A DNA stretch of 64,000 bases from Onthophagus taurus (lineage: Eukaryota > Arthropoda > Insecta > Coleoptera > Scarabaeidae). Position 1 is the stretch's first letter, and the number at the start of each line of letters is the position of its first letter. Below, piece by piece: positions 1 to 40,000 of this stretch. The stretch spans positions 1,433,501 to 1,497,500 of the forward strand of contig NC_091971.1 in assembly GCF_036711975.1 (NCBI RefSeq). Reading direction: 5' to 3'. A program made the translations under genes and the position numbers. The notes beneath the pieces were generated by a model, which saw only the letters and a program-made list of their open reading frames with translations, did no database searches and was not told the origin of the DNA.

Positions 1-2205
1 TAGCCGTCTTTAGAGACGTGCGGCTAAACCCAAATGATTCTAGTTTTAGGTATAGTGTTAGTTCTACATAGTAACAGTGCTAGTGTAATACTAGAACTAA
101 CACTATATCTAGAACCAGAATCATTTGGGTTTAGCCGTCTTTAGAGACGTGCGGCTAAACCCAAATGATTCTAGTTCTAGGTATAGTGTTAGTTCTACAT
201 AGTAACAGTGCTAGTGTAATACTAGAACTAACACTATATCTAGAACCAGAATCATTTGGATTTAGCCGTCTTTAGAGAAGTGCGGCTAAACCCAAATGAT
301 ATAGTGTTAGTTCTACATAGTAACAGTGCTAGTGTAATACTAGAACTAACACTATATCTAGAAATAGAATCATTTGGGTTTAGCCGTCTTTAGAGACGTG
401 CGGCTAAACCCAAATGATTATAGTTCTAGGTATAGTGTTAGTTTTACATAGTAACAGTGCTAGTGTAATACTAGAACTAACACTATATCTAGAACCAGAA
501 TCATTTGGGTTTAGCCGTCTTTAGAGACGTGCGGCTAAACCCAAATAATTCTAGTTTTAGGTATAGTGTTAGTTCTACATAGTAACAGTGCTAGTGTAAT
601 ACTAGAACTAACACTATACCTAAAACTAGAATCATTTGGGTTTAGCCGCACGTCTCTAAAGACGGCACGCACGTCTCTACCGCACGTCTCTAAAGACGGC
701 TAAACCCAAATGATTCTAGTTCTAGATATAGTGTTAGTTCTACATAGTAACAGTGCTAGTGTAATACTAGAACTAACACTATATCTAGAACCAGAATCAT
801 TTGGGTTTAGCCGTCTTTAGAGACGTGCGGCTAAACCCAAATGATTATAGTTCTAGGTATAGTGCTACTTTTACATAGTAACAGTGCTAGTGTAATACTA
901 GAACTAACACTATATCTAGAACCAGAATCATTCGGGCTTAGCCGTCTTTAGAGACGTGCGGCTAAACCCAAATGATTCTAGTTTTAGGTATAGTGTTAGT
1001 TCTACATAGTAACAGTGCTAGTGTAATACCAGAATTAACACTACATCTAGAACTAGAATCATTTGGGTTTAGCCGTCTTTAGAGAAGTGCGGCTAAACCC
1101 AAATGATTATAGTTCTAGGTATAGTGCTAGTTTTACATAGTAACAGTGCTAGTGTAATACTAGAATTAACACTATATCTAGAACCAGAATCATTCGGGCT
1201 TAGCCGTCTTTAGAGACGTGCGGCTAAACCCAAATGATTCTAGTTTTAGGTATAGTGTTAGTTCTACATAGTAACAGTGCTAGTGTAATACTAGAATTAA
1301 CACTACATCTAGAACTAGAATCATTTGGGTTTAGCCGTCTTTAGAGACGTGCGGCTAAACCCAAATGATTATAGTTCTAGGTATAGTGCTAGTTTTACAT
1401 AGTAACAGTGCTAGTGTAATACTAGAACTAACACTATATCTAGAACCAGAATCATTCGGGCTTAGCCGTCTTTAGAGACGTGCGGCTAAACCCAAATGAT
1501 TCTAGTTTTAGGTATAGTGTTAGTTCTACATAGTAACAGTGCTAGTGTAATACTAGAATTAACACTACATCTAGAACTAGAATCATTTGGGTTTAGCCGT
1601 CTTTAGAGACGTGCGGCTAAACCCAAATGATTCTAGTTTTAGGTATAGTGTTAGTTCTACATAGTAACAGTGCTAATATAATACTGGAACTAACACTATA
1701 TCTAGAACTAGAATCATTTGGGTTTAGCCGTCTTTAGAGACGTGCGGCTAAACCCAAATGATTCTAGTTTTAGGTATAGTGTTAGTTCTACATAGTAACA
1801 GTGCTAGTGTAATACTAGAACTAACACTATATCTAGAACCAGAATCATTTGGGTTTAGCCGTCTTTAGAGACGTGCGGCTAAACCCAAATGATTCTAGTT
1901 TTAGGTATAGTGTTAGTTCTACATAGTAACAGTGCTAATATAATACTGGAACTAACACTATATCTAGAACTAGAATCATTTGGGTTTAGCCGTCTTTAGA
2001 GACGTGCGGCTAAACCCAAATGATTATAGTTCTAGGTATAGTGTTAGTTTTACATAGTAACAGTGCTAGTGTAAAACTAGAACTAACGCTAGACCTAGAA
2101 CTAGAAACATTCGGGTTTAGCCGTCTTTAGAGACGTGCGGCTAAACTCAAATGATTCTAGTTTTAGGTATAGTGTTAGTTCTACATAGTAACAGTGCTAG
2201 TGTAA
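1..2205. repeat. Palindromic satellite array A, 131-bp unit
   Basis: About 17 head-to-tail units; unit starts at 1, 132, 263, 381 and 512 show a 131-bp period (the 118-bp step lacks 13 bases). Each unit holds two dyad symmetries. One is a short junction hairpin around TAGCCGTCTTTAGAGACG. The other is a long inverted repeat with arms of about 41 bp, beginning AAACCCAAATGATTCTAG, separated by a roughly 24-base spacer reading CATAGTAACAGTGCTAGTG. Units differ by a few substitutions (for example CATTTGGG versus CATTCGGG). The array starts before the window edge. No gene is seen in it. Confidence 0.95.
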
Positions 2206-3183
2206 TCTAGTATTGGTTTCTGTTGGTATTATCTAAGACCCTTATAAAATTTATGTTGTTTTCCTAATTTTTAGTAACATTTTCAGTAATTAAATAGTTG
2301 AGGTTAAAATACTAAGAAATTTTTGGATAAACACGGTTTTAGCGAAGTACATATTTGTTGTAAAAACGTGCTACAAAGTAATTAAATAGAACAAAACACA
2401 TTTTATAGGTAAATAAATGGCAAATAAACACCCCACAACATTTTTTATGCACCTTTTCCTTTTGAATACCGAAAGCTCAAACGTCAGTGTGACATATTTA
2501 TTTCAAAACATGATAAAACAAAACTCCCTGTTAATTTTGCCAACTTTACAATAATTTGGCAGGTATTATAGAAAAAAAATAAACTATAGATATTAACCTT
2601 TTTATTCAAAACTGACAAAATAAGTTAAAATGGAATTTTATTTCAAGCCATCCATATATTTTAAACAGTAGGAGATTTCCATAACTTTACATTGCCTGCT
2701 ACATATTATTCCATAATAATTAGATATTTCATTTAATAAAATGGATATAGAAAAAAGTTTAGATTACTCACCGATGATCACAACAAAGTTACAAATAATA
2801 TTAAAACGATCACGTTTAAACCTTCAAAACATTTGAAAATAAAACACATTGAACTTGGCACATTTTAAAACATTCTTTAACTCTAATCTCAAAGAAGTAT
2901 TGTTTCTTTTCAAAACATAAACAACAATACCAATATCTGGAATAACGGACTACCGTGACCGTGTACAATATAAAACGTTTTCAATCAATCAATATCAGGC
3001 CAAGGCCAATATCGGATGAATAACAATGTTATTTAATAGTTCCGCGATTTAGAAAACGACTACAATCGCCGATTTGAATCGAAAAAAGCTAGTAAATTAT
3101 AAATAGCGGAACGAAACGGGAATATTTTTGAGATGATTTATAAATCGATTTTTTTATTGATTGATCGTGATTTAAGAACTCAC
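2206..3183. other. AT-rich spacer, no gene recognised
   Basis: No convincing coding exon on either strand. A strong-looking donor on the minus strand lies near 2766-2772 (G followed by GTGAGTAA), but the sequence before it has stops in all frames without a recognisable start, so it is not called as an exon. If the minus-strand first exon at 3184-3204 is real, this stretch would be its first intron. Confidence 0.5.
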
Positions 3184-3892: not shown

Positions 3893-4176
3893 GCTAATAT
3901 TTTAGAAAGTTTTTTGTGATACTTTAAAAGTAAATTGGGCAAAAATCTTTCGATAAAACCTGTTTGAAGGAGATATTTTGGCTAACATTAGTCAATCAAC
4001 GTGTTATTTCGAGATCAAGAAGTTGTAAAGAGGTAATTACTTCTGGTAATAAACACGATTTACGTCAAAGTTTTTTTTTTAAGTATTTTAATGGTTAAAT
4101 TAATTAATAATAAACAAGAAAATCTTAATTTAAAAGAATCCAAAGTTAATTAAAATATTATAAAGGGGAACTGTAA
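3893..4176. repeat. Direct repeat copy 1 flanking satellite array B
   Basis: About 284 bases beginning GCTAATATTTTAGAAAG, repeated almost exactly at 5226-5511 with an offset of 1,333 bases. The two copies differ by scattered substitutions and poly-T length and directly bracket satellite array B. Confidence 0.9.
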
Positions 4177-5225
4177 ACTAGAATCATTTGGGTTTAGCCG
4201 TCTTTAGAGACGTGCGGCTAAACCCAAATGATTCTAGTTCTAGATATAGTGTTAGTTCTAGTATTACACTAGCACTGTTACTATGTAGAACTAGAATCAT
4301 TTGGGTTTAGCCGTCTTTAGAGACGTGCGGCTAAACCCAAATGATTATAGTTCTAGGTATAGTGCTAGTTTTACATAGTAACAGTGCTAGTGTAAAACTA
4401 GAACTAACACTATATCTAGAACCAGAATCATTTGGGTTTAGCCGTCTTTAGAGACGTGCGGCTAAACCCAAATGATTCTAGTTTTAGGTATAGTGTTAGT
4501 TCTACATAGTAACAGTGCTAGTGTAAAACTAGAACTAACACTATATCTAGAACCAGAATCATTTGGGTTTAGCCGTCTTTAGAGACGTGCGGCTAAACCC
4601 AAATGATTCTAGTTCTAGATATAGTGTTAGTTCTAGTATTACACTAGCACTGTTACTATGTAGAACTAGAATCATTTGGGTTTAGCCGTCTTTAGAGACG
4701 TGCGGCTAAACCCAAATGATTATAGTTCTAGGTATAGTGCTAGTTTTACATAGTAACAGTGCTAGTGTAAAACTAGAACTAACACTATATCTAGAACCAG
4801 AATCATTTGGGTTTAGCCGTCTTTAGAGACGTGCGGCTAAACCCAAATGATTCTAGTTTTAGGTATAGCGTTAGTTCTACATAGTAACAGTGCTAGTGTA
4901 ATACTAGAACTAACACTATATCTAGAACTAGAATCATTTGGGTTTAGCCGTCTTTAGAGACGTGCGGCTAAACCCAAATGATTATAGTTCTAGGTATAGT
5001 GCTAGTTTTACATAGTAACAGTGCTAGTGTAAAACTAGAACTAACACTATATCTAGAACCAGAATCATTTGGGTTTAGCCGTCTTTAGAGACGTGCGGCT
5101 AAACCCAAATGATTCTAGTTCTAGGTATAGTGTTAGTTCTACATAGTAACAGTGCTAGTGTAATACTAGAACTAACACTATATCTAGAACTAGAATCATT
5201 TGGGTTTAGCCGTCTTTAGAGACGT
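4177..5225. repeat. Palindromic satellite array B
   Basis: Eight units of the same palindromic family as array A. The spacer between the hairpin arms is reversed in the first unit (near 4260) and again near 4636, and forward in the others. This gives a higher-order repeat of about 375 bases (compare 4231 with 4606). No gene is present. Confidence 0.93.
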
Positions 5226-5511
5226 GCTAATATTTTAGAAAGTTTTTTGTGATACTTTAAAAGTAAATTGGGCAAAAATCTTTCAATAAAACCTATTTCA
5301 AGGAGATATTTTGGCTAACATTAGTCAATCAACGTGTTATTTCGAGATCAAGAAGTTGTAAAGAGGTAATTACTTCTGGTAATAAACACGATTTACGTCA
5401 AAGTTTCTTTTTAAAAGAATTTTAATGGTTAAATTAATTAATAATAAACAAGAAAATCTTAATTTAAAAGAATCCAAAGTTAATTAAAATATTATAAAGG
5501 GGTACTATAAA
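5226..5511. repeat. Direct repeat copy 2 flanking array B
   Basis: Near-identical partner of 3893-4176. It starts abruptly inside the junction hairpin of the last satellite unit. A third, strongly diverged copy of its middle part is recognisable around 5570-5680 (shared run GTTGTAAAGAGGTAATTA and similar flanks). Confidence 0.9.
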
Positions 5512-5775
5512 GATTTGATATTATTTTCTTAGAAGTACCAATAAGGGTGTTTGCTCAAGGCGAAAATTGGCAGGTCATCCAAACATCAATCAACCAACGA
5601 CGTTATTTCTGGATCCAAAGGTTGTAAAGAGGTAATTATCCACCGACGGTAATAAACACAGACTTGCGTCAAAGGAGTTACAAAGACTTTAAAATTTAAC
5701 ACATCCTAAAAAAACACTTTTAAATCAACAATATGAAAAAACAACCCGAAAACTTTCAAAAATCGTTACTCACCT

Positions 5776-5998
5776 TTTAATAAAATAGCCATTTCAATTT
5801 GAAAAACGAAAACAGTTTCGTAAGATTTTATTTTTAACTTAAAATATTTGGCTAGAACCATAATCTTTATTTCATACGTAACGCCAAATTCAGGTGGTAC
5901 ATGAGTCATTTTAATGGATTTTAATGTTCTTTGGATTTTAGCCAGAAAATTTTGGTTTCTAATAAAATCAATAACATTTTTTAAAGTTTCATTTAACA
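5776..5998 (-). CDS. Possible exon of unknown gene
   Basis: An open frame on the minus strand reads about 74 residues (starting MLNETLKNV) and ends in a consensus donor, AAAAG followed by GTGAGTAAC (phase 2). It is lysine/isoleucine rich, has no recognised domain and matches no family known to me. AT-rich DNA can produce such frames by chance, so the donor is the only real support. Confidence 0.2.
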
Positions 5999-6425
5999 CT
6001 TATTTTTTTTATTTAATAACTTTCAACTTTTTAAATTTTTTTGATTCTATACTTGATAAATTTTAAAAATCGAACTCGAATAATCCATGATCTAAATCGA
6101 AAATTAAAATCGTTGTAATCCTCGAAGATATCAGCAGATTAAAATTTGTTGATGTCAGAATATATTAGTAATTTTAAATGATTCCATTTATTTTTAGATG
6201 TAGGTATTATTTACGATTTTAATTAAGAAAGTTTAATTAAGCTTACAGTGAAAATGAAGGTCGGGTTTAATTATGAGGAAAACATTCTAGAATGTAGGAA
6301 ATGGAAGTGATACGACAAAGAAATCAATTATGTTGTTTTATGAACGAAGAAAATATTAAATTAATTACCAAATAATTATAATAAATTTTTAATTATAAGT
6401 ACGAAGGGAAAAAGCCTGTGTTAAT
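5999..6425. other. AT-rich spacer, nothing recognised
   Basis: Low-complexity A/T sequence; no ORF, RNA or transposon signature seen. Confidence 0.5.
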
Positions 6426-6720
6426 TAAACCAAAACGAGAACTAACACTAGCACTATCACTAGAACTAACACTAGATCTAGAACTAAAAACTTTCCGGTT
6501 ATCAGTGCGCCTCTCAAGACGACTAAAACCCGGATGATTCTAGTTCTAGGTCTTGTGTTAGTTTTAGTGCTAGCGCAAAACTAGAACTAATACTAGACCT
6601 AGAACTAGAAACATTCGGATTTAGCCGCACGTCTCTCAAGATGGCTAAACCGGAATGATTCTAGTTCTAGGTATAGTGTTTAGCCGTCTTTAGAGACGTG
6701 CAGCTAAACCCAAATGATCA
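6426..6720. repeat. Diverged satellite-family fragment
   Basis: Carries the CTAG-rich arms and the AGCCG junctions of the palindromic family but with substitutions and a truncated last unit that ends at the junction hairpin near 6715. Confidence 0.8.
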
Positions 6721-7454
6721 AGAAGAGAGAGGAACTTTATATCAAACTTGGCAAAAGTCTTTAACTATTAAAAGTAGCAATTGATCAAAATTTCATTTGT
6801 ATTACTCAAGGATACTCACTATTCTGAAAGTATTTTTAGGGTTTTCTAACAATTTAAGTAGGTGTATGTTTTACGAGATTTTGTTCAGTTCTTTATTGTT
6901 TTCGTTTTTCCAGTTTAATTCAGGGTGTGAGGATGCCTAGAGTGGAAATTACCGTCAATTATGTGAATTTAACAGAAATCTTAACAACAATGCTTCAGAA
7001 AAAGTGTCAACCAGAATCAATCCATCGACATGCGATGAGCAGAGCAGAATAAGGATGTGGGGTGAAGAAGAACAAATGAGATGTAGGACCTCCATCTTCT
7101 CACCTAGCTTCTAAATCTACTATAAATCTACTAGCAGTACCTAGTTAGGTAACAAAAATCGTTCATCGTTCTGTAACATTTCGAATGTTTGTAATTTTGT
7201 CGGCCATATCTTGCGTTATCACTAACGGCTCAACATCAACAACAACATTTGGAGTGGTGCACGTTACGGCTACACTGGAACTTAGAGTGACATAATGTGA
7301 TGTTCATGATAAATCCTGATACTGTTTGAGAATGTATGGTTTCTGTATAAGTGTCAGACGAAGGCGTGGGTTGCAATGTTGAATTATCTTTTGAGAGGCA
7401 TGTGCACCAAATTGTGAAAATTATAGACTGTTAACTCTATGGATGACTTATGGA
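6721..7454. other. Unique sequence, no gene recognised
   Basis: About 730 bases of moderate AT content between two satellite blocks. No coding exon or repeat was recognised on either strand. Confidence 0.45.
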
Positions 7455-9600
7455 AGCCTAGCCGTCTTTAGAGACGTGCGGCTAAACCCAAATGATTCTA
7501 GTTCTAGGTATAGTGTTAGTTCTAGTTTTACACTTGCACTGTCACTAGAACTAACATTAGACCTAGAACTAGAAACATTTGGGTTTAGCCTTACGTCTCA
7601 TAAGACGGCTATACCCGCATGTTTCCAGTTCTAGGTCTAGTGTTAGTTCTAGTTTTACACTAGCACTGTTACTATGTAGAACTAAGACTATACCTAAAAC
7701 TAGAATCATTTGGGTTTAGCCGCACGTCTCTAAAGACGGCTAAACCCGAATGATTCTAGTTCTAGATATAGTGTTAGTTCTAGTTTTACATTAGCACTGT
7801 TAATATGTAGAACTAACACTATACCTAGAACTAGAATCATTTGGGTTTAGCCTTACGTCTCATAAGACGGCTAAACCCGCATGTTTCTAGTTCTAGGTCT
7901 AGTGTTAGTTCTAGTTTTACACTAGCACTGTTACTATGTAGAACTAAGACTATACCTAAAACTAGAATCATTTGAGTTTAGCCGCACGTCTTTAAAGACG
8001 GCTAAACCCGAATGATTCTAGTTCTAGGTATAGTGTTAGTTCTAGTTTTACACTTGCACTGTCACTAGAACTAACATTAGACCTAGAACTAGAAACATTT
8101 GGGTTTAGCCTTACGTCTCATAAGACGGCTAAACCCGAATGATTCTAGTTCTAGGTCTAGTGTTAGTTCTAGTTTTACACTAGCACTGTTACTATGTAGA
8201 ACTAACACTATACCTAAAACTAGAATCATTTGGGTTTAGCCGCACGTCTCTAAAGACGGCTAGTATACGTAAAGAGGTATAGTCTTAGTTCTACCTAGTA
8301 ACAGTGCTAGTGTAAAACTAGAACTAACACTATACCTAGAACTAGAATCATTCGGGTTTAGCCGTCTTATGAGACGTGCGGCTAAACCCAAATGATTCTA
8401 GTTCTAGGTATAGTGTTAGTTCTAGTTTTACACTTGCACTGTCACTAGAACTAACATTAGACCTAGAACTAGAAACATTTGGGTTTAGCCTTACGTCTCA
8501 TAAGACGGCTAAACCCGAATGATTCTAGTTCTAGGTCTAGTGTTAGTTCTAGTTTTACACTAGCACTGTTACTATGTAGAACTAACACTATACCTAAAAC
8601 TAGAATCATTTGGGTTTAGCCGCACGTCTCATAAGACGGCTAAACCCGAATGATTCTAGTTCTAGGTATAGTGTTAGTTCCAGTTTTACACTTGCACTGT
8701 CACTAGAACTAACATTAGACCTAAAACTAGAAACATTTGGGTTTAGCCTTACGTCTCATAAGACGGCTAAACCCGAATGATTCTAGTTCTAGGTCTAGTG
8801 TTAGTTCTAGTTTTACACTAGCACTGTTATTATGTAGAACTAACACTATACCTAAAACTAGAATCATTTGGGTTTAGCCGCACGTCTCTAAAGACGGCTA
8901 AACCCGAATGATTCTAGTTCTAGGTATAGTGTTAGTTCTAGTTTTACACTTGCACTGTCACTAGAACTAACATTAGACCTAGAACTAGAAACATTTGGGT
9001 TTAGCCTTACGTCTCATAAGACGGCTAAACCCGCATGTTTCTAGTTCTAGGTCTAGTGTTAGTTCTAGTTTTACACTAGCACTGTTACTATGTAGAACTA
9101 AGACTATACCTAAAACTAGAATCATTTGGGTTTAGCCGCACGTCTCTAAAGACGGCTAAACCCGAATGATTCTAGTTCTAGGTATAGTGTTAGTTCTAGT
9201 TTTACACTTGCACTGTCACTAGAACTAACATTAGACCTAGAACTAGAAACATTTGGGTTTAGCCTTACGTCTTATAAGACGGCTAAAGCCGAATGATTCT
9301 AGTTCTTGATCTAGTGTTAGTTCTACTTTTAGTTCAATAAAAATATACAACAATCTAGCACTGTCACAATTAAAACTAGAACTAACACTAGACCTAGAAC
9401 TAGATTGTTTTAGGTTTAGCCGTACGTCTCCAGAACACTTCAAAGTAAACACTTCAAAACTTGTTTCTGAAGAAGGTTGCAACATGGCATGCAAAACGTC
9501 AAACATTTTTTCAAAAGACGTACGACTTAACCCGAAAGTTTCTAGTTCTAGGTCTAGTATCAGTTCTTGTGATAGTACTAGCGTTAGTATCTCAAAACTA
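7455..9600. repeat. Palindromic satellite array C (dimeric)
   Basis: Units alternate between a junction of the GTCTCTAAAGACGG type and one of the TTACGTCTCATAAGACGG type, giving a mostly 250-270-base dimer (TTACGTCTCATAAG junctions near 7586, 7858, 8106, 8486, 8754, 9002, with a variant at 9260). Most spacers are in the orientation opposite to array A. One unit near 8280-8340 is forward. The right end (9290-9600) is degenerate and includes a TATTTTTATTGAACT module on the minus strand. The open frames in this block are by-products of the repeat. Confidence 0.93.
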
Positions 9601-11360
9601 ATTACATATTTAAGTAGCATTTTGGTGATGATATAACAAAGAAATCGATTTGAAAGTAAAGTTATGAGTACATTTAATGATAAAAAAATAATTCATTATT
9701 AATAAAGATATAATTTAGATTAGGTTTACTTTGAGATTATATATTATGTTAATATTGATTAAAAAAATTACTTTAATAAAAAAAAAATAATATGGTAATA
9801 ACAAAGTTTATGGTTATATTGCTTATAAACATAATTCATTGCTTTAATGACCGATTAAACAAGGCCAAGTGAATTATAATCTATATTTAGAAAGAGAATT
9901 CGTTGCATATAGCACTTATAGATCAAACAAATCGGAATTTCGTGGTGCTTATTGATTTTCACGTGACCGGAGTAGTTCCGGGTGGTCTTCAAACTCAATA
10001 TTTACGACGAATTTATAGAAACCCGTTTTTCATTCATTGAAAGCTGCAACCAACAACGTATCAACGAGAAAGTTATTTACTAATCTCTCCATATTGTTGG
10101 AGTAATTTTTTTAATAAATCGTGTTGGAAACATAATTGAACATAAAACATAATTAATTTTTAACAAAATAAAGAATCACCTTATTTATTTATTTTTTGTA
10201 AGAAAAAATTAATTAATATTTTTATTTTAAGATGTTTTTAGATTAATAATAATTTTTGAAAACGTGTAAGAATAAGTTTGAAAAAGTTTTACAAAACATA
10301 CCCTCGCTGGTATCCATTATGTGATGATGCAATTTTTCGAAATGGTGTCCCAAAAAGAAATCAAAGAAGAAGAAAAAACCGCGTACCGGAAGGTGTAATG
10401 GTGTAGGTAAACAAAACGGTGCTCACGTGCCCCACAAGAACCGGTACAACACGTACACTGGACGTTCTCGGTCTGCGTGTATGAGTAACCGAGTTAGAAT
10501 GTCGCGAGTTCAAACCCTGTTTCTATCGAGCGGCACATTACTCTTCTTGGCCCAGTTCTCTCTGTTTGCTGGTGCTGCTTTTACTCTGTTCTATGTGTGC
10601 GTGTTCGTTCGACGCCCATTCGTTTGTTGGGGAGCAGAGGCGATGCCCCTTTAACACAACCCTGGTTGGTTGTGGTAGAGTTGCAATGCGCAATTTCAAA
10701 CGGATGACCGAGGACTTTTAGGATTTTTTTTTCAAGGAATGCATTTTGTAATTTAGATTCTTTATGTGACTTTCCAATTATTTCTTTTTTGCCAAAAATG
10801 TTGGACATTTTGCAAATTTTTATTATAAAAGATATTAATCAAAATCACCATTAATAATATTAAATGTGTTAACACATAATATCCCTAAAATAGTTCAAAA
10901 TATCTATGTTGAAATTTTCCATGAATAATATTCTCGATATGATGAGTAATTCCGAGAAAACACATTTAAATTGCACTGTTATGACAAACATGTTTGCAAT
11001 TCAAGAACTTTTTTTAATTGATGACTACATTGTGTAAATTTGAAAAAAAAATGTGTCCAAACGCAGCTCTATTAATAAAAAATCGATGAGCATCGTCACA
11101 GCATGTCAGCATTCTGATTATATCACCAGATTTTATCCAAAAAACGTAAATATTTCACAAACAATAACTCAATTTTGCATTGAGATGTAGTTAATCCTTG
11201 TTCATTCTCTCACCGCCTTTATTCATAAAATTTCTTGTTTTGGCCTTCATAGATATTATCATTACCGGATTCAAAATTGTTTATGTATCTAAGTTTTCAA
11301 AGTACTAATTTATTTTAAAGATTTTCTATGTGCACATGACACAATTCATATTTTTTCTTG
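9601..11360. other. AT-rich intergenic region, weak gene signals only
   Basis: No recognised protein. On the minus strand an ATG at 10316 opens five codons (MDTSE) plus one base before a donor GTATGTTTTG at about 10301, a possible first exon. The plus-strand frame at 10427-10654 has no recognised domain. The rest is low-complexity sequence. Confidence 0.4.
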
Positions 11361-11576
11361 ATTTGAGTGTTTATGATCTAATTCGTATTTGCACTGTTAC
11401 TAATCGCTTACTTTCTGAATTGTAATTGACACAAAGTGACACATCTAACAGAATACTACCAGAATTTAGAAAATTTGCCAAAAAAGCGATCTGATAAATA
11501 ATTATCTTGGACAGAAACTATTCAATTATTAGAAAACCCTAGATACAATAGGGATGTAGCTCTAATTTTAATTGTT
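11361..11576. repeat. Interspersed repeat R, copy 1
   Basis: About 215 bases starting GATTTGAGTGTTTATG, repeated at 13722-13936 with few differences and partly at 14817-14895. Copy 1 is followed by a transposon insertion. Copies 2 and 3 are joined directly to satellite units. Confidence 0.88.
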
Positions 11577-13537
11577 GAGAACCACCATTTTCTAAATATG
11601 CAGCTATCCTTCGTATTATAGAATGTTGCTAGTTAATTTCTTTAGCGAATTAGTAGCTTCAACTATTCGGTCAATCAAATCTTCGCGTGTATCTGGTTTA
11701 CCATTACTACTATACGTACGAGATTTAAGGCAACCCTATAGAAAATAAACTAGAGGCGACAAGTCAGGTGACCGAGCTGGAAATGTACAGGACCACCTCG
11801 TCCTTAAGAAATGCCGTGACTTGTCTCCGAAAATGTGATGGTGCCCCATCTTGCTGGAACCACATGCCACGACGAGCTTCTAGAGGACTATCTTCTATGT
11901 AATTCGGCAATTCTTCTTCTAAAAAATGAAGGTAACTTTCTGCACTATTATTATTATTATTATTATTATTAGACCTATAAGATCTATTGTAACTTTAGCC
12001 CTCCAAAGGTTTAGGGCAAATGTAGGTCCTTAATGAACCTTAGTATTGTCCTGAGGTCTTGAACCTTTATGTCGGTAGGTAACAGGGGAGTTTTACCGAA
12101 GACGTTGTGCCTTAGACGTCCTCTGGCGACGCAATTGCACAGTATATGTTCAGCAGTTTCTGACTCGTCGTTGCATAGTCGACAAGTTTGATCCTCAGCT
12201 TGTCCAATGTGGAAGAGGTGGTATTTTAGGGGCACATGGCCGGTTAGGTAGCCTGAGAGCGTTCTTAGATCCCCTTTGCTGAGGCATAAAACCTCTTTGG
12301 TTTTGTTTTGCGACGGAGTTATCATACTCTTCGCTTGTCTGTGACCTGGAAGTTCTTTCCAGCGTAAGGCTATCTTTGAAGCCTCCCAGTTGTTGATTAT
12401 TTGTTTTAGGTGGCTTTTTTGTAGTCCACATCCAGGTTGGGGTCCAATGAAGGGCGTGTTTGCTGCCTCTTTGGCCAGCTTGTCGGCCTTCTCATTGCCC
12501 TCAATGTTGCTGTGACCTGGAACCCACCATAGGGTAACATCATTACCCCTAACGAGTTCTCTCAGGTTGTTGGTGCACTCTCTGATCAGTGCGGAGCCAC
12601 ACGTGTAGGCCTGAATTGCCTTTAAGGCGGCCCGACTGTCTGTGAAAATGTTTATGGATGCACCTTTTTGTCCCTTCTGTAGGTTCAAAGAAGTTTATAG
12701 CAAGAACTTCTGCTTGGAAAATTGTTAAGTCCGAGCTGAGGGGCAATTTGATGTGGCTATTTGGTCCACTGATGCCCATGCCTACTCCAGATCTTACTGT
12801 CTTTGAAGCATCGGTGTACCAGGCTAGGGCTCCTCTTTTTAGTTGAGGCCCTCCTTTCGCCCAATCATCCCTGCTACTAAATATGACCTTATACGGTTGG
12901 TTGAAATTGTATTCCGTCGGTATAAGGCCCGTTTTAATTTCAATCAGGTGATTTAGACATGGGTCTTTGAGGATCTCGAGGTGTCCTCTGAGGTTGCCCT
13001 GCCTTTCTGCACTAAGACGTCTTTCATAAAAATGAGGCCCAACAAGTTGATTATTTAACAAGCCGCACCACACCTTGACGAAAAAACGATATTGATGGTT
13101 AACAACGATTACTTCGTGTGGGTTTTGATCCGTCCAGATATGAGAATTACGTGTGTTGTTAATACCATTAATTGTAAACTAGGCCTCATCCGTAACGCAG
13201 GAAGTAAATGCTGGACTTTGTATAAATCATAGGGATAAAGTCCATCATAGTGCAGTATTCTCCATAGGTTGGGTTGAGAAATTCCCGTTGTATGGGATAT
13301 TCTACGAATACTGGTAGAAGGACTTCGTTCAACTGCAATTGAAACTGCTTCAGACAGCATAAAAATCATTAATTTATCAAACATTAAATCGTCAAGACTA
13401 ACTATGACTTTTTTTAATTCTTTCTATATCTCAGAAATGAAGAGGAATTCACCTATACGTGATATACCATTTTTTGATCGTAATAACCCCTGGAATATAT
13501 GATATAAGTTTATCGGTCGAGTCACGGAACACCCTGT
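11577..13537 (-). mobile_element. Degraded Tc1/mariner-like transposase element, interrupted
   Basis: Minus-strand translation gives a DDE transposase in two pieces. The first (about 13384 to 13003) includes an N-terminal helix-turn-helix-like part and the segment NGINNTRNSHIW, with frameshifts and an in-frame stop. The second (about 11947 to 11760) includes the catalytic-region text MWFQQDGAPSHF. The pieces are separated by a non-LTR insertion at 11948-13002. A terminal sequence CAGGGTGTTCC (minus) is seen at about 13536, next to TA. The opposite end was not located. This is a dead copy. Confidence 0.8.
11948..13002 (-). mobile_element. 5'-truncated non-LTR retrotransposon (RNase H end)
   Basis: Minus-strand frames encode the C-terminal part of a non-LTR ORF2: RNase H start (WYTDASK), FTDSRAALKAIQ, WVPGHSNIEGNEKAD, then a CCHC-like tail (CRLCNDESETAEHILCNC), ending at 12011. 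A frameshift separates the first RNase H strand from the rest. A (ATT)n tract at 11945-11970 is the 3' tail. The 12-base direct repeat CTTTCTGCACTA (11936-11947 and 13003-13014) is the target-site duplication, showing insertion into the mariner transposase. Confidence 0.92.
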
Positions 13538-13552
13538 ATATTTTTGTTGAAT

Positions 13553-14816
13553 TAAAAGTAGAACTAACTCTAGACCAAGAACTAGAATCATTCGGCTTTA
13601 GCCGTCTTTAGAGACGTGCGGCTAAACCCAAATGATTCTAGTTCTAGATATAATGTTAGTTCTACATAGTAACAGTGCTAGTGTAAAACGTAGTAGATTA
13701 TGTAGTAGTAGTAAAAGTAGATTTGAGTGTTTATGATCTAATTCGTATTTGCGCTATTACTAATCGCTTACTTTCTGAATTGTAATTGATACAAAGTGAC
13801 ACATCTAACAGAATACTACCAGAATTTAGAAAATTTGACGAAAAAGCGATCGGATAAATAATTGTCTTGGACAGAAACTATTCAATTATTAGAAATCCGT
13901 AGATACAATAGGGATGTAGCTCGAGTTTTAATTGTTATACAGCGTTTGATTGTTATATATTTTTATTGAACTAAAAGTAGAACTAACTCTAGACCAAGAA
14001 CTAGAATCATTCGGCTTTAGCCGTTTTATAAGACGCATGGCTAAACCCAAGTGATTCTAGTTCTAGGTATAGTGTTAGTTCTACACAGTAATGGTGTTAG
14101 TATAAAACTAGAACTAACACTATACCCAGAACTAGAATCATTCGGGTTTAGCCGTCTTTAGAAACGTGCGGCTAAATCCAAATGATTCTAGTTCTAGGTA
14201 TAGTGTTAGTTCTACATAGCAACAGTGCTAGTGTAAAACTAGAACTAACACTATATCTAGAACTAGAATCATTTGGGTTTAGCCGTCTTTAGAGACGTGC
14301 GGCTAAACCCAAATGATTATAGTTCTAGGTATAGTGCTAGTTTTACATAGTAACAGTGCTAGTGTAAAACTAGAACTAACGCTAGACCTAGAACTAGAAA
14401 CATTCGGGTTTAGCCGTCTTTAGAGACGTGCGGCTAAATCCAAATGATTCTAGTTTTAGGTATAGTGTTAGTTCTACATAGTAACAGTGCTAGTGTAATA
14501 CTAGAACTAACACTATACCTAGAACTAGAATCATTTGGGTTTAGCCGTCTTTAGAGACGTGCGGCTAAACCCAAATGATTATAGTTCTAGGTATAGTGTT
14601 AGTTTTACATAGTAACAGTGCTAGTGTAATACTAGAACTAACACTATATCTAGAACCAGAATCGTCACACAATCGTTTTAATTGTCACACAACGCTAGAT
14701 TGTTGTATATTTTTATTGAACTAAAAGTAGAACTAACACTAGATCAAGAACTAGAATCATTCGGCTTTAGCCGTCTTATAAGACGCATGGCTAAACCCAA
14801 GTGATTCTAGTTCTAG
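13553..14816. repeat. Palindromic satellite array D
   Basis: Units of the same family, broken by repeat R copy 2 (13722-13936). Several units are preceded by the module TATTTTTATTGAACT (near 13539, 13965 and 14708) that also borders dispersed family members elsewhere. The array ends at 14816, where repeat R copy 3 begins. Confidence 0.9.
13722..13936. repeat. Interspersed repeat R, copy 2
   Basis: Direct repeat of 11361-11576 without the transposon, so it shows what the uninterrupted locus looks like. It leads straight into a TATTTTTATTGAACT module and satellite DNA. Confidence 0.88.
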
Positions 14817-14895
14817 AGGAAAAGCGATCTGATGACTAATTGTCTTAGACAGAAACTATTCAATTATTAGAAAACACTATATACAATAGAGATGT
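14817..14895. repeat. Interspersed repeat R, partial copy 3
   Basis: Matches the second half of repeat R (AAAGCGATCTGATGACTAAT and following) and then diverges. Confidence 0.8.
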
Positions 14896-17984: not shown

Positions 17985-19252
17985 TGGTTGGTTGGACAAA
18001 GGACTAACTTGGACATCACACATTAGTTGCAAAACCAAAAAAGCGACGATTGTACTGACCCAGTGCCGAAGGGCTATTGGGAATACTTGGGGATTAAATC
18101 CGAAAGTTACAATGTGGATCTACACTTCTGTGATAAGACCCATGGTAGCTCACGGAGCCATAGTCTGGTGCTCAGCACTAAAACATGCATATAAAGCTAC
18201 ATTGCTACATCAATTGCAACGACTGGCCTGCCTGCTAATCACAGGCGCTATGAGATCTACACCTACGATTGCAATGGAGACTATGTTAAACGTGCTGCCC
18301 CTAGATATTTTTATCAGGGAGGTGGCCGTGATGGCATTGCTTCGGTTGCGATCAGTAAATGAAAAGCAGGTTGTTAAAATGGGAATAGTCCGGAGCAGCT
18401 CGCACAGACTACATTACACCTACTTTCTTAGGCAAGCCACACTTTGGCATTGAAACGATACCCCAGAGTAACTCAAGCTCGAGCAAAACGCTGACCATCT
18501 ACACTGATGGATCAAAGAAGGTTGGAGGTTCCGGAGCGGGAATCTTCTCGCACGATCTCCAGCTGCACCTTTCCACTTCGTTAGGATCGTATTGCACGAC
18601 TGCTCAAACCGAATTAATTGCTATAAACATAGCAGCCGATGCGATTATCGACTCCGAAAAAGTCGGCAGAAACGTTGTAATCTGTACTGATAGCAGACAG
18701 GCTATGCTGGCGGTTGGCAGGCATCATACTGCATCATCGTTGGTGAAGTCCTGTCGGCAATCACTCGAAGAGTCAAACGTATACAACAACGTCACGATAA
18801 AATGGCGAAAAGGACACATCGGAATTAAAGGACATGATCATGCGGACAGGTTGGCGAAACGGGCGGCTAACAAGTCACCGATCTCCCCTGAACCGTTTGT
18901 ACCACTAGCTGTTAATACAGCATCAAAACTGATAAACTCCATCTCCCACCGAGCTTTTTGCGATAGATGGGATGGGACAGCAGTAGGTGCCTTTGCTAAG
19001 AAAACTCTGCTCTACCCTGACCGGAAGACATCTACTCAGTTTCTGGGAAAATCGAAAAGTGACTTGAGGCTTCTCACCCACTTCCTGACCGGACACTGCA
19101 GGTTACGTAAGCACATGTTTTACATGAAGCTGGCGAATACACCCCACTGTAGAGGGTGTGAAATAGAAGACGAGACGGTAAGTCATATTGTTTGTAACTG
19201 TCCAAACCTTGTGTACTTAAGGGGCTTAAGGGGCTCCAAATTTCGAATATAA
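17985..19252 (+). mobile_element. Non-LTR retrotransposon fragment (RT tail, RNase H, zinc knuckle)
   Basis: The plus strand carries the end of an ORF2: LDKGLTWTSHI and VIRPMVAHGAIVWC (post-RT thumb region), then, after a frameshift near 18430, an RNase H domain with TIYTDGSKK, ICTDSRQAML and the H-bearing segment HADRLAKRAA, then FLTGHCRLRKHMF and a CCHC-like CRGCEIEDETVSHIVCNC. It is 5'-truncated near 17985. The 3' UTR probably continues to about 19450. The frameshift makes it inactive. It is a different lineage member from the copies at 11948 and 39484. Confidence 0.9.
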
Positions 19253-22068: not shown

Positions 22069-25000
22069 ATGGGACTGAGTGATTGGCGGCCGTTTATCTA
22101 TGGGGGTCTAGCTTCTTGTGTAGCAGAGTTCGGTAAATAATTAATTTATCCAGTATTCAATTCATTTCGAGATTATGTGATTTTTAGGTACATTCCCGAT
22201 TGATACATCTAAGACTAGGTTACAAATTCAGGGACAGAAAGTTGATATTAAACATGCCAAGCTTAAATACAGGGGGATGCTTGATTGTCTTTTGAAAATT
22301 ATTAAGTACGAAGGACTTCCTGCTCTTTACGCCGGGTAAGTTAATAAGAAATTTATTAAATGAAATTGTTAATGTAATGAATAACAACCAGGTAATTTAG
22401 AGATTAGATAACTTTTTTCTGTTTAAAAACTACTATAACAATATTTGTTTTCACAGTAAGGGTTTTTAGATTAAAATATTTTCATCATTTACATGATAAT
22501 CACTAATTAGTAAGCTGATATCTATAAATTCCCCATTTTTCAATATAATGTTCTACTTAAAAGTTATTGCAATTATTATTGTAAATATATTATATGCATG
22601 AAACTTAAATATGCATATGCAAGTTTAAGATTGATTTCATCATACAATTTAGTTTCTATTTTAAGAGATTAAATCTCAACTCATCTTTAAAATAACTATT
22701 TTAAATCCTATGAATGCATAACCTGAAATCATCCACCATGAATTCTGCACTGCTTAGTTGTGTAATTTATAATAATATTAACTTATTGAGTTCTTCCAAA
22801 AAGTATTATATACTAAATTTGAACTAGCTAATCTTGAACTCCATCAACAATCAAAAGGATCAATGACCTGCAAAGAATATTGGATATATACTGCTAGCAA
22901 GCAATATATTATATTAACTTTTGCGAATATATTAATCTTTCAATAGTGTAACTATTTCATTCCATTTAAAGGAAGAACATCTGTTTATTCCAGATTTTCA
23001 TTCTTGCTTATATCCATATTGAGTACATGCTAAAAATTCACCACAAATCCATCATACAGCTTCAAACCAAGCGCTGATATGCTTTTATTAACTTCCACAA
23101 GACATTTTACTTCTATCAGGGCTAAACTAAAATTAAAGAGACTGCATTTAGGTATCGAACAGTGTTAACTAGAAAATATAGTACTGGATAAAATTGTTTA
23201 GAAATTACAACACGAAGAATAAATGTACGATATCAATTAATTTATTTTCCAAGTTGACATAACCTTAAAAAATATTTTGACATTTAAGGTCAAAACTGAC
23301 AAACAGCTGTCTCGCTTTATTGATCAAAATATATCTATTCGAATTTATAAAGCACATTTAAAATACTTTCTATTTTAAAGTTTACAATTTACGTATGTAT
23401 TTTGTGATTACATAATCAAATATACTGAAGAAGTAGAAATTAATTACAGGGAATTATTAAATTTGAAATTCATAGGATAAACGTCAAATTGACAGCTAAA
23501 TATGAAAAGTGATACTTCGAAGTTAATCATGAATTAATAAAAAGTTTTTTTACAAGTTAGCTTAATGTTTACCAAGATCAATAACCTGCAACACGAAGAA
23601 TAAATGTACGATATTAATTAATTAATTTTCCAAGTTGACATAACCTTAAAAAATATTTTGACATTTAACGTCAAAACTGACAAACAGCTGTCTCGCGTTA
23701 TTGATCAAAATATATCTATTCGAATTTATAAAGCACATTTAAAATACTTTCCATTTTAAAACAATTTACGAATGTATTTTGTGATTACATAATCAAATAT
23801 ACTAAAGTTGTAGAAATTAACTACAGGGAATTATTAAATTTCAAATTCATAGGATAAACGTCAAATTGACAGCTAAATATGAAAAGTGATACTTTAAAGT
23901 TAATCATGAATTAATAAAAAGTTTTTTTACAAGTTAGCTTAATGTTTACCAAGATCAATAAGCTGCAACACGAAGAATAAATGTACGATATTAATTAATT
24001 TATTTTCCAAGTTGACATAACCTTAAAAAATATTTTGACATTTAACGTCAAAACTGATAAACAGCTATCTCGCGTTATTAATATTTTCATCAAAGTATTT
24101 TATAGATTTAAAATACTTTCCATTTTAAATCTAACAATTAACGAATGTATTTTATGATTACATAATCAAATATACTAAAGTTGTAGAAATTAACTACAGG
24201 GAATTATTAAATTTCAAATTCATAGGATAAACGTCAAATTGACAGCTAAATATGAAAAGTGATACTTTAAAGTTAATCATGAATTAATAAAAAGTTTTTT
24301 ACAAGTTAGCTTAATGTTTACCAAGGACAGTAGAATCTAACAGGACTGCTACATCCATTGTATTTTTGTAGTCCACTACGGGTTGGTTGCCCGCACTCTA
24401 CGTCACACTATTTGCCACGCCTGGTAACTGTCTGTGTTTTTAGAGGTTATATGATAGACATTAATATGTCTAAAAACATAAAACTTCAAAAATAATATGA
24501 ATAAGTCTAGGATATAACCTCTAAAAACACAGCAAACGCATAGACCATAACAACAGCTGGGCGTGGAAAATGGTGTGACGTAGTTTGCGGGCAGGTTGTC
24601 ACAACAATGGATGTAGCAGTCCTGTTAGATTCTACTGTCCTTGAATGTTTACCAAGATCAATAACCTACAACACGAAGAATAAATGTACGATATTAATTA
24701 ATTTATTTTCCAAGTTGACATAACCTTAAAAAATATTTTGACATTTAACGTCAAAACTGACAAACAGCTATCTCGCCTTATTAATATTTTCATCAAAGTA
24801 TTTTATAGATTTCAAATACTTTCCATTTTAAATTTAACTATTAACGAATGTATTTTGTGATTACATAATCAAATATACTAAAGTTGTAGAAATTAATTAC
24901 AGGGAATTATTAAATTTGAAATTCATAGGATAAACGTCAAATTGACAGCAAAATATGAAAAGTAATACTTTAAAGTTAATCATGAATTAATAAAAAGAAA

Positions 25001-33241: not shown

Positions 33242-33478
33242 ATGTACTAGTCAAAAAAATAAAAAATTATAATAAAAGGATAATTTATCAATTTTTTCTA
33301 ATGCTAAATCAAAAGCGTTATCTGGAGGAATGAAAAGAAAACTATGTGTTGGAATTGCATTATGTAGTAACTCAAAGGTGTGTATGTTCGATTAACCAAC
33401 GAGTAGTATGGATCCAGCTGACGGAAGATCAGCGTGGAAAATTTATCTTATTTATCCTGTCTTAACATTATCAGACTT
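33242..33478. other. Spacer between transposon and tandem repeat
   Basis: AT-rich; nothing recognised apart from the start of the repeat family near 33470. Confidence 0.4.
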
Positions 33479-33966
33479 CCTTCACGCTTTAATTAGGGCT
33501 TCTTCACGCTTTAATTGGCGTTTCAAACGAAAGCTACCTGTCTTAACATTCCTTCACGCTATAATTGGGGTACAAAAGAAAACCGACATGCCTTCACGCT
33601 ATAATTAGGGATTCAAAACAAAACTGACCTATCCTAACATTCCTTCACGCTTTAACTGGGGTTTCTTCACGCTTTAATTGGCGTTTCAAACGAAAGCTAC
33701 CTGTCTTAACATTCCTTCACGCTATAATTGGGGTACAAAAGATAACTGACATTCCTTCACGCTATAATTAGGGATTCAAAACAAAACTGACCTATCCTAA
33801 CATTCCTTCACGCTTTAACTAGGGTTTCTTCACGCTTTAATTGGAGTTTCAAACGAAAGCTACCTGTCTTAACATTCCTTCACGCTATAATTGGGGTACA
33901 AAAGAAAACCGACATTCCTTCACGCTATAATTAGGGATTCAAAACAAAACTGACCTATCCTAACAT
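33479..33966. repeat. 163-bp higher-order tandem repeat
   Basis: Three copies start at 33479, 33642 and 33805. Each holds four sub-repeats that begin CCTTCACGCT or TCTTCACGCT followed by TTTAA or ATAAT, separated by GTTTCAAACGAAAGCTACC or related spacers. Sub-repeats at the same position in different copies are more alike than neighbours within a copy. Confidence 0.93.
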
Positions 33967-37088: not shown

Positions 37089-40000
37089 ATGGAAATAGCT
37101 AACGTCGTGGGGGCGAATCCTGGTGCCCCACGAACGAGTAAGGTTATGCTGGAGGGCGTAGGCGCTCGCGTTATTCGAGGACCTGACTGGAAATGGGGAA
37201 AGCAGGTTAGCTTTCAATATTTATATTTTTAACTACAAATGGATTACTGTTATATGGAAAATGTAGATTGTTTAAAGTATTGAATTTATGGTCTTTATAA
37301 AAAATATGTAGGTTAGAAATTATTTTGAGGTTAGGTCTATAATAAAAAAAAAAAATTCAAAAAATTAGAGATTACTAAAGATAAAAGATGTTTTTTGTTA
37401 TTTTTAAATTAATTTTATGATTACAAATAATTTTTTCTACATTAACTTGTTTATATTGAAAAGTATTATAATTTTATTTTGTTGAACATAACCTTACTTT
37501 TAATACTTAATTTTTATTTGTTAATAATTTGAATATTGTAGGATGGTGGTGAAGGTCATGTTGGTACAGTTCGCAATTTTGAATCACCAGATGAAGTGGT
37601 AGTTGTCTGGGATAATGGAACAGCAGCAAATTATCGTTGTTCTGGTCAATTTGATTTAAGGATCTATGACAGTGCCCCAACGGGTATAAAACATGAAGGT
37701 ACAATGTGCGATACATGCCGTCAACAACCAATTTTTGGAATTCGATGGAAATGTGCTGAATGTGGTAATTACGATCTCTGCTCAATTTGTTATCACGGCG
37801 ATAAACACCATTTGCGCCATCGTTTCTTCCGGATAACTACACCAGGTAGCGAAAGGGTTTACTTGGAGACTCGTCGTAAAAGTAAAAAGATTGCTGTAAG
37901 GGGTATTTTTCCGAGTGCGAGAGTTGTTCGAGGCGTGGATTGGCAATGGGAGGATCAAGATGGGGGAAATGGTCGTCGTGGAAAAGTTCAGGATATCCAA
38001 GATTGGTCAGCAACTAGTCCAAAATCCGCTGCTTATATCGTTTGGGATAATGGCACAAAAAATTTATATCGTGTTGGTTTTGAAGGAATGGCAGATTTAA
38101 AAGTTGTAAGCGATGCAAAAGGACAAACTGTTTATCGGGATCATTTACCTTGCTTGGGAGATCAAGGCTCAGGACGTTCTGGACCACCAGATTTGAAAAT
38201 AGGCGATCAAGTTAGCGTTGATTTGGAGTTAGAAATCGTTCAATCTTTGCAATTGGGGCACGGGGGATGGACAGATGGGATGGTGGAATGTTTAAGTACT
38301 ACAGGGACGGTAGTTGGGATTGATGAAGATCACGATATTGTTGTCGCTTATAATAGCGGAAATCGGTGGACTTTTAATCCGGCCGTTTTGACTAAAATTG
38401 CTGCTCCACCTGTTGGAGAAGGTTTCAATGAAACTCCGCAACAGCAGTTTGCCGTTGGCGATGTTGTACAGATTTGCTCTGATTTAGAACGTATTAAAAT
38501 GTTGCAGAGAGGACATGGAGAATGGGCTGATGGAATGACTCCTGTAAGTGATTATTTTTCTATTTAATTATACAGGTGACCCATTTGAAAGCGGAGCACT
38601 CTCGTAAAATTTGTATTTACTATCCGATTTCGACAATTTTTTTTTTGAATTGTAGACCATAAAAAACTGTACCTTTGGACAAAGAGTCATATTTTTCTTA
38701 AAAAAAGCAAGGCCTACTATTTCACTTTTTATGTGAAAAAAATGAAGAAATCATATTAGGAAATTTTTTACAAAAAATCTGAGTACACCACTGCATTAAG
38801 CGCCTTTTGAAATGAGCATATACCAAATTTCATCAAAAATGGTTAGAAATTAAAACCGTTATAGATAATTGAAAAATATCATTTTTATGAATTTATTTGA
38901 TCTGATCTGATCTAGTAAACCATGACAAAGAAGGTAATAAAATACAGATAATAATACAAAAACTATTTACATTTGCTACAGATGAAATTAATTGATAAAA
39001 AATTATATTTTTCAATTAACGGTGTTAATTTGTAACCAGTTTTGATGAAATTTGGTATATGCCCATTTCAAACGGCTCTCAATGCAGTGGTGTACTCAGA
39101 TTTTTTGTAAAATATTTCGTAATATGGTTTCTTCTTTTTTTGCACATAAAAGGTGAAATATGACTCTTTGTCCTAAGGCACAGTTTCTTACGCTCTACAA
39201 TTCAAAAAAGAATTTGTTGAAATTGGGTAATAAATACAGATTTTATAAGGGTGCTTCACTTTCAAATGGGTCACACTATAGGTATGTATTAATTCTAGCT
39301 ATTAGAACTAACGCCAGACCTGGATCTATAAACATATACATAGAATAATAGTAATGTTGGACCTTATCATTAAGTATAACCTAACCTCAATCGTTCTGTT
39401 ATAACCTCAAAAAGTTTCATTGTTTAAATCCTTCCTGTTTTGGAGAAAACAATGTTTTCCTTGACATCACTTTACATTACATTACATTACATAGAATACA
39501 TATCGGGTAGGCGGACCAACCAACCTTGCACCGCGACCCTAAGGATCTATTGTACCCCGATAGATATCGTTATCAAATTTCACCGTGCAGTCCAATGCTC
39601 TTAACGAACATTAATACCTTGCTCGGCGAAAGGTCATTCAGATCTTTTGAGGAGATAAACTGCGACCCAAAAATCGAGAATCTGATACGGTTAACGGCAG
39701 GGAAAAAAACATGCTCAACCGTCTCTGCTTCCTCCGCACATAGTCGGCATTCAACATCGTCGGCTAAACCCAACAAGTTGAGGTGTGCTTTTAATCGGCA
39801 GTGCCCAGTAAAAACACCCATTAGAACTTTTATGCTACTACGGGCAAGTCCTAAAATATTCCCGGGTTTGACAGTGGCGATGTTAATAAACACCTTAGCA
39901 TGTCTCATTCCAGGAGAATTGGTCCACAGTAGGCGAAGTCTCTCTTCAGTCCACAGTCCAATCCTATATTTGGCCATCGCAAATGATACACCAACTGCTG

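Follow-up and report, generated by a model that had tools for sequence, protein, structure and literature searches.

Hairpin arrays and inverted blocks in the window

The analyzed window covers 64,000 nucleotides of the genome of the beetle Onthophagus taurus (assembly GCF_036711975.1, here G000; contig C6, positions 1433501-1497500) and contains several arrays of a hairpin repeat, termed A to D. In these arrays, the repeat unit consists of an arm (45 nt), a loop S, an inverted arm' (45 nt), and a second loop J (16 nt, GTCTTTAGAGACGTGC). The unit has a length of 131 bp, which is shortened to 127 bp when it carries the shorter of two related S classes (67 nt and 71 nt). An original prediction for this stretch had described the 71-nt class of S as a spacer and J as a junction. 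It proposed that the spacer flips its orientation independently of unchanged arms and junctions, by recombination or template switching between the two arms of a hairpin. The hairpin potential is indeed strong: the S unit at 153-267 reached -38.5 kcal/mol (z -14.2) when folded as a single strand, and the four stretches folded in this way gave z values from -14.2 to -5.7. The arm identity is 0.877 within S hairpins (245 pairs) and 0.895 for the outer arms within J hairpins (384 pairs). Since each arm is an inverted copy of the other, the inversion of a whole unit mimics a reversed spacer between unchanged arms, and only variants specific to the left or the right arm reveal that a unit has been turned.

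All results refer to this single genome assembly (290.8 Mb in 33 contigs). The spacer pattern was found 1305 times (662 + 643) with up to one mismatch and 0 times when read backwards, so that chance is not an issue for these matches, which are spread over several contigs. Two junction-arm patterns gave 10,352 and 9,120 matches with up to two mismatches, two counts that overlap because an intact junction matches both patterns. The head-to-tail units of 131 or 127 bp at many loci characterize the element as a dispersed satellite-like tandem repeat. Among the 60 exact spacer matches listed for contig C1 (44.24 Mb), 34 are located in the first 8 Mb, 19 beyond 37 Mb, and 7 in between. One exact arm pattern had no match in viral contigs.

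The units were parsed by a mismatch scan for arms and loops, and the spacer orientations reported before were confirmed. Array A (1-2210, forward strand), which extends upstream of the window (locus L039, about 7860-9000), contains 17 S loops, all of them forward; 15 read exactly CATAGTAACAGTGCTAGTG, and the two others, at about 1660 and 1922, read ...CTAATA. Array B (4177-5227, forward strand) comprises eight S loops, of which those at 4267-4285 and 4642-4660 are reversed and the remaining six forward, and every junction is forward. In array C (7480-9422, reverse strand), S and J are mainly reversed, both S classes are present, and the array terminates in a different loop (about 9303-9399). 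Thirteen of its S loops are reversed (seven of the 71-nt class and six of the 67-nt class, the latter oriented by alignment), and one is forward with one mismatch (8294-8312). The internal junctions share this orientation, 13 of 14 being reversed, so that array C is for the most part reverse-complemented; this rules out 13 separate flips and accounts for most of the inversions previously assigned to it; an additional junction at its left edge (7464-7479) is forward. The S loops of array D and of one separate unit preceding it (13582-14810, forward strand) are all forward, and two junctions have no clear orientation. Subarrays of opposite orientation lie close together in the case of A and C and also in locus L040.

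Three inversions are found in the window, each of a different block: S in array B, J in array A, and S together with J in array C. These inversions involve single blocks. The two reversed S units of array B (4216-4312 and 4591-4687, both on the reverse strand) are identical to each other and are situated in 300-nt copies with 100% identity, the second unit being part of a 375-bp duplication. The identity over 300 nt points to one event followed by the 375-bp duplication and rules out two separate flips, so that the suggestion of more than one flip in this array could not be upheld. The left arm of the reversed unit is a right-arm variant: it differs at 1-4 bases from the six forward left arms of array B and at 0-1 bases from its six right arms (reverse-complemented). 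At arm position 29, it carries A, as do all six forward right arms; G is found in all six forward left arms. This right-arm base indicates that the arm has moved together with the spacer. On the right side of the reversed unit, the arm is missing 18 bp between AGAACTA repeats. Together with the reversed junctions of array C, these altered arms contradict the view that arms and junctions stay the same.

The reversed J in array A (648-697, reverse strand), which was absent from the original prediction, comprises a pair of full reversed copies that enclose a partial one. Both arms beside it carry the base of the opposite side at position 29. The right arm preceding it is closer to left arms (nearest 0, mean 1.5 differences) than to right arms (nearest 3, mean 4.0), and the left arm following it is slightly nearer to right arms (mean 2.1 vs. 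2.6). Position 29 of array A is as expected in 14 of 15 left arms and 13 of 15 right arms, the exceptions being the two arms flanking the reversed J and the right arm ending at 2122. The inverted block of array C (8258-8379, forward strand) contains the forward spacer at 8294-8312, a forward junction at 8364-8379, and a broken left arm. The inner left arm of this block harbors a GTCTT variant, which also occurs in three of the seven reversed 71-nt class units of array C.

Loop phase and arm variants across the genome

The phase of S relative to J was determined in 25 sources (the window and 24 regions) for 268 units with a junction on both sides. The loci were chosen from pattern matches, with contigs C1-C3 supplying most of them, and L059-L062 were selected because of their dense arrays; the proportions are therefore not genome averages. 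S and J are in the same phase in 151 units and in opposite phase in 68, while 42 units have mixed neighbors and 7 remained without a call. Nearly all units of L059, L060, and L061 are in opposite phase. In L062, S orientations are mixed and J is constant; as each loop allele keeps a single orientation, we read this mixture as inherited.

For the S-block trees, units with mixed or unknown neighbors (31 and 5 of 244) were left out. The tree of the 67-nt class contained 9 phase changes among 121 units compared with 32.4 for shuffled labels, and that of the 71-nt class 6 among 87 units compared with 19.0. Over 60 trees per class (one full and 59 resampled; 88 and 64 distinct rows), the minimum was 6 phase changes in both classes. 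The full J-block tree showed 16 changes vs. 32.0. None of 152 S blocks and 2 of 116 J blocks occurred in identical form in both phases, and S blocks one mismatch apart were found in both phases at different loci. Standard lengths (S gap of 61, 67, 70, 71, 74, or 75; J of 16) are present in 63 of 77 opposite-phase and 139 of 164 same-phase units; when only S gaps of 67 or 71 were accepted, the numbers were 56 of 77 and 118 of 164, respectively. Together, the phase trees and length counts point to inversion that was repeated but rare, mostly without a change in length, and followed by clonal spread. The repeat seems to document rare events of the past rather than a switch in constant operation.

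The linkage of arm variants to the loops was analyzed for units with an S gap of 67 or 71, a J of 16 bp, and a clear orientation. Identical arms within one locus were counted once, which reduced 395 arms to 228 in the first screen; 37 arms were added for a locus-wise test. In the screen, the outer positions 11 and 16 were linked mainly to J and the inner positions 34, 40, and 43 mainly to S. Positions 25, 27, and 28 leaned to J, and, apart from positions 1, 33, and 45 (see below), the links of the remaining positions were weak. When labels were flipped locus-wise (265 arms, 34 loci), the observed value was reached in 0 of 1000 cases each for 11-J, 16-J, and 34-S, and in 200, 431, and 139 of 1000 cases for the opposite links 11-S, 16-S, and 34-J, respectively. 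Taken by itself, the replicate set of 37 arms from 12 loci is in agreement at position 16. We read these data as S with the inner arm and J with the outer arm behaving as separate blocks, with exchanges located on average between arm positions 17 and 33; single events vary, as in the window. Because the outer variants go with J and the inner variant with S, which places the exchange in the middle of the arm, the inversions appear to have occurred through arm homology. The inner arm tends to move with the spacer and the outer arm with the junction; independence of the flips from the arms is thus not supported, and the arm variants rule out spacer flips between unchanged arms.

Origin of the inverted blocks

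The element is probably a dispersed hairpin satellite, in which S together with the inner arms, or J together with the outer arms, was copied backwards as a loop block by a template switch between opposite arms. Similar arms are present in both orientations along every array, which could allow a repair or replication event to switch its template between opposite arms. Such a switch, by short-tract conversion or strand switching, would copy the loop block backwards, and tandem duplication would then multiply the reversed unit, as shown in array B. The kept unit lengths and the arm-linked variants argue for homology within the arms. Template switching or conversion, rather than a reciprocal crossover, presumably made the exchange. 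The donor may have been any opposite arm nearby or elsewhere and not specifically the partner in the same hairpin, because the arms of one hairpin are not alike in the way that frequent own-hairpin exchange would make them. To judge from the untidy ends in arrays B and C, some events are completed by microhomology or end joining. The predicted loop inversion by recombination or template switching is thus supported in part: loops were inverted relative to their neighbors several times, mostly with the unit length kept, and, judging from the arm variants, the exchange took place within the inverted arms.

Several points weigh against this explanation. The evidence stems from one assembly and therefore yields no inversion rate, and the trees rest on 67-71 columns. 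The event in array B has an untidy end, the 18-bp deletion in the right arm, and so has the event in array C, where the outer left arm is replaced by unrelated filler (about 8262-8275); homology consequently did not act at every end. The right arm ending at 2122 in array A has G at position 29, with no flip adjoining. In the screen of 228 arms, positions 1, 33, and 45 were linked to both loops. Positions 11, 16, and 34 were picked after this screen, and 228 of the 265 arms in the locus-wise test were the same, so that this test is not independent. In the replicate set, 5 of 7 arms of one opposite-phase class (3 loci) deviate from the rule at position 11, and the marker at position 34 is present in 0 of 7 opposite-phase arms. 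Moreover, nothing supports an exchange inside a single hairpin: compared with other arms of the same array, own-hairpin S arms were closer at 4 and farther at 16 of 24 loci, and own-hairpin J arms were closer at 16 and farther at 14 of 34 loci. Frequent exchange within one hairpin left no sign in this comparison.

The strongly clonal orientation (9 and 6 changes against shuffle means of 32.4 and 19.0) would also be expected if two or a few old variants, in same and opposite phase, had each arisen once and had then been duplicated and dispersed with no recurrent inversion. The single orientation of each L062 loop allele, the one event behind both reversed units of array B, and the lack of any S block identical in both phases (0 of 152) fit this scenario as well. 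We nevertheless regard it as rather unlikely, since both loop classes contain opposite-phase units and show no fewer than 6 changes in every one of their 60 trees, three structurally different inversions lie within one window, S blocks one mismatch apart occur in both phases at different loci, and 2 of 116 J blocks are identical in both phases. Old variants spread by tandem duplication account for the multiplication of the reversed units, but leave their first origin unexplained. It is less likely again that S and J are two cassettes in a hairpin satellite and invert independently via shared arms, often enough for the orientation of a given unit still to vary between individuals; if true, the S/J phase would provide a natural count of template switches within a nuclear genome. 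Active flipping of the loop by recombination between the arms of one extruded hairpin, as in the original prediction, is in line with the strong hairpin potential and with the exchanges located in the arms by their variants. However, arms of the same hairpin were not more alike in the comparison described above, which is an indirect test, the orientation is clonal, and no identical S block was found in both phases among 152, all of which renders this mechanism improbable. Hairpin repeats are difficult to assemble, and an artefact in a palindromic repeat might produce reversed loops; yet the arm variants of the flipped blocks are consistent and each phase is found repeatedly, at many loci, so that an artefact is very improbable. 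Slightly less credible still is site-specific DNA inversion by a system that targets the arms: most opposite-phase units have kept their length, which fits such a system, but the three events in the window invert different blocks, two of them with one untidy end.

The closest process found in the accessible texts is that of small inversions in chloroplasts, in which inversions of 5-50 bp with inverted repeats of 11-24 bp are widespread (cited in PMC12928735). In the small hairpin-flanked inversions of Kim and Lee (2005, cited in PMC12928735), the short loop of a stem-loop is flipped through its inverted-repeat arms, giving flip-flop orientations. The loops described here are likewise inverted between inverted repeats, with ends in the repeats, albeit with exceptions: the arm variants split into S and J groups, and lengths are kept in 63 of 77 opposite-phase units. 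Unlike in the chloroplast case, the repeat is nuclear, comprises thousands of hairpins in tandem, has two different loops in each unit, and spread clonally by tandem duplication. Satellites of the beetle Tribolium madens switch orientation over kilobases, and for one of the Tribolium satellites ectopic recombination among similar subunits has been suggested (PMC13081366). Like the present repeat, they form arrays with orientation switches and have hairpin potential; their inverted subarrays show macro-dyad symmetry. According to the same source, the Tribolium subarrays are kilobases long, situated in putative pericentromeres, and conserved in their switch sites, whereas single blocks of roughly 50-120 bp in small arrays are inverted here.

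An inverted-repeat element can seed a satellite, as described for TIR-220, which derives from the foldback element Tetris of Drosophila virilis (PMC4079207). TIR-220 is also a dispersed tandem array, grown from the sequence of an inverted-repeat element; it differs in its repeats of about 220 bp within the terminal inverted repeat, and loop flipping is not described in the accessible part of that report. The Cg_HINE Helentron elements of oyster resemble the present repeat in their short satellite-like arrays dispersed through an assembled genome, but their repeats are reported to keep one orientation to the flanks with no exception (PMC7492417), in contrast to the orientation varying inside arrays here. 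In the literature searched, with most subscription journals outside the search, neither this repeat nor a nuclear satellite with flipping of single loops was found. Each unit records part of its own inversion history, the loop orientation marking the event and the arm variants the position of the exchange. The thousands of units in one genome would make it possible to count how often short inverted repeats exchange, and where the breakpoints fall, in a natural nuclear repeat; the closest described cases found are plastid.

Array flanks, third loop, and neighboring features

The flanks of array B (3893-4177 and 5226-5511) are a direct duplication of ordinary sequence (286 columns, 96.9% identical), as if the array had arrived with a long target duplication. 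Array D has a direct flank copy of 76 bp with 88% identity (13842-13917 and 14820-14895), and a 217-bp part of its left flank has a second copy 2.4 kb upstream with 95% identity (11360-11576 and 13720-13936). A long target duplication was rejected as a general rule, because direct flank copies of at least 50 nt were marked at just 6 of 57 arrays tested (B and D of the window, L048, L049, L013, and L031). Of these, L031 is marked as repeat-derived, the copy of L048 lies within the hairpin repeat itself, and that of L049 resembles a separate tandem repeat.

A third hairpin loop containing GTATATTTTTATTGAACTAAAA is located at about 9327, 14705, and 53702 and at many further loci, often at array ends; its 51 fuzzy matches with up to 5 edits include some that are plainly due to chance. 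This loop may be the remnant of a parent element. A foldback or Helitron-like parent was considered in view of the recurring third loop, but element ends and a transposase were not established.

Open reading frames in the window match, among others, the Pfam families Mib_herc2, ZZ, and ankyrin (mind-bomb-like gene), as well as mitochondrial carrier, Mff, and DTW. Fragments of retroelements, which match Pfam RNase_H, lie at 12011-12694, 18389-19252, and 39573-40853. Other tandem arrays with different consensus units are found at 23208-24325 (377 bp), 33477-33966 (163 bp), and 40881-41958 (about 157-181 bp). Outside the window, the start of contig C2 (1-800 of L064) consists of a long (CCCAA)n tract, which corresponds to a TTGGG telomere-like repeat. 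Occurrences of TTGGG are described for some scarabaeoid beetles (PMC8233369) and for a lacewing (PMC12564400), as far as the accessible parts of these sources indicate.

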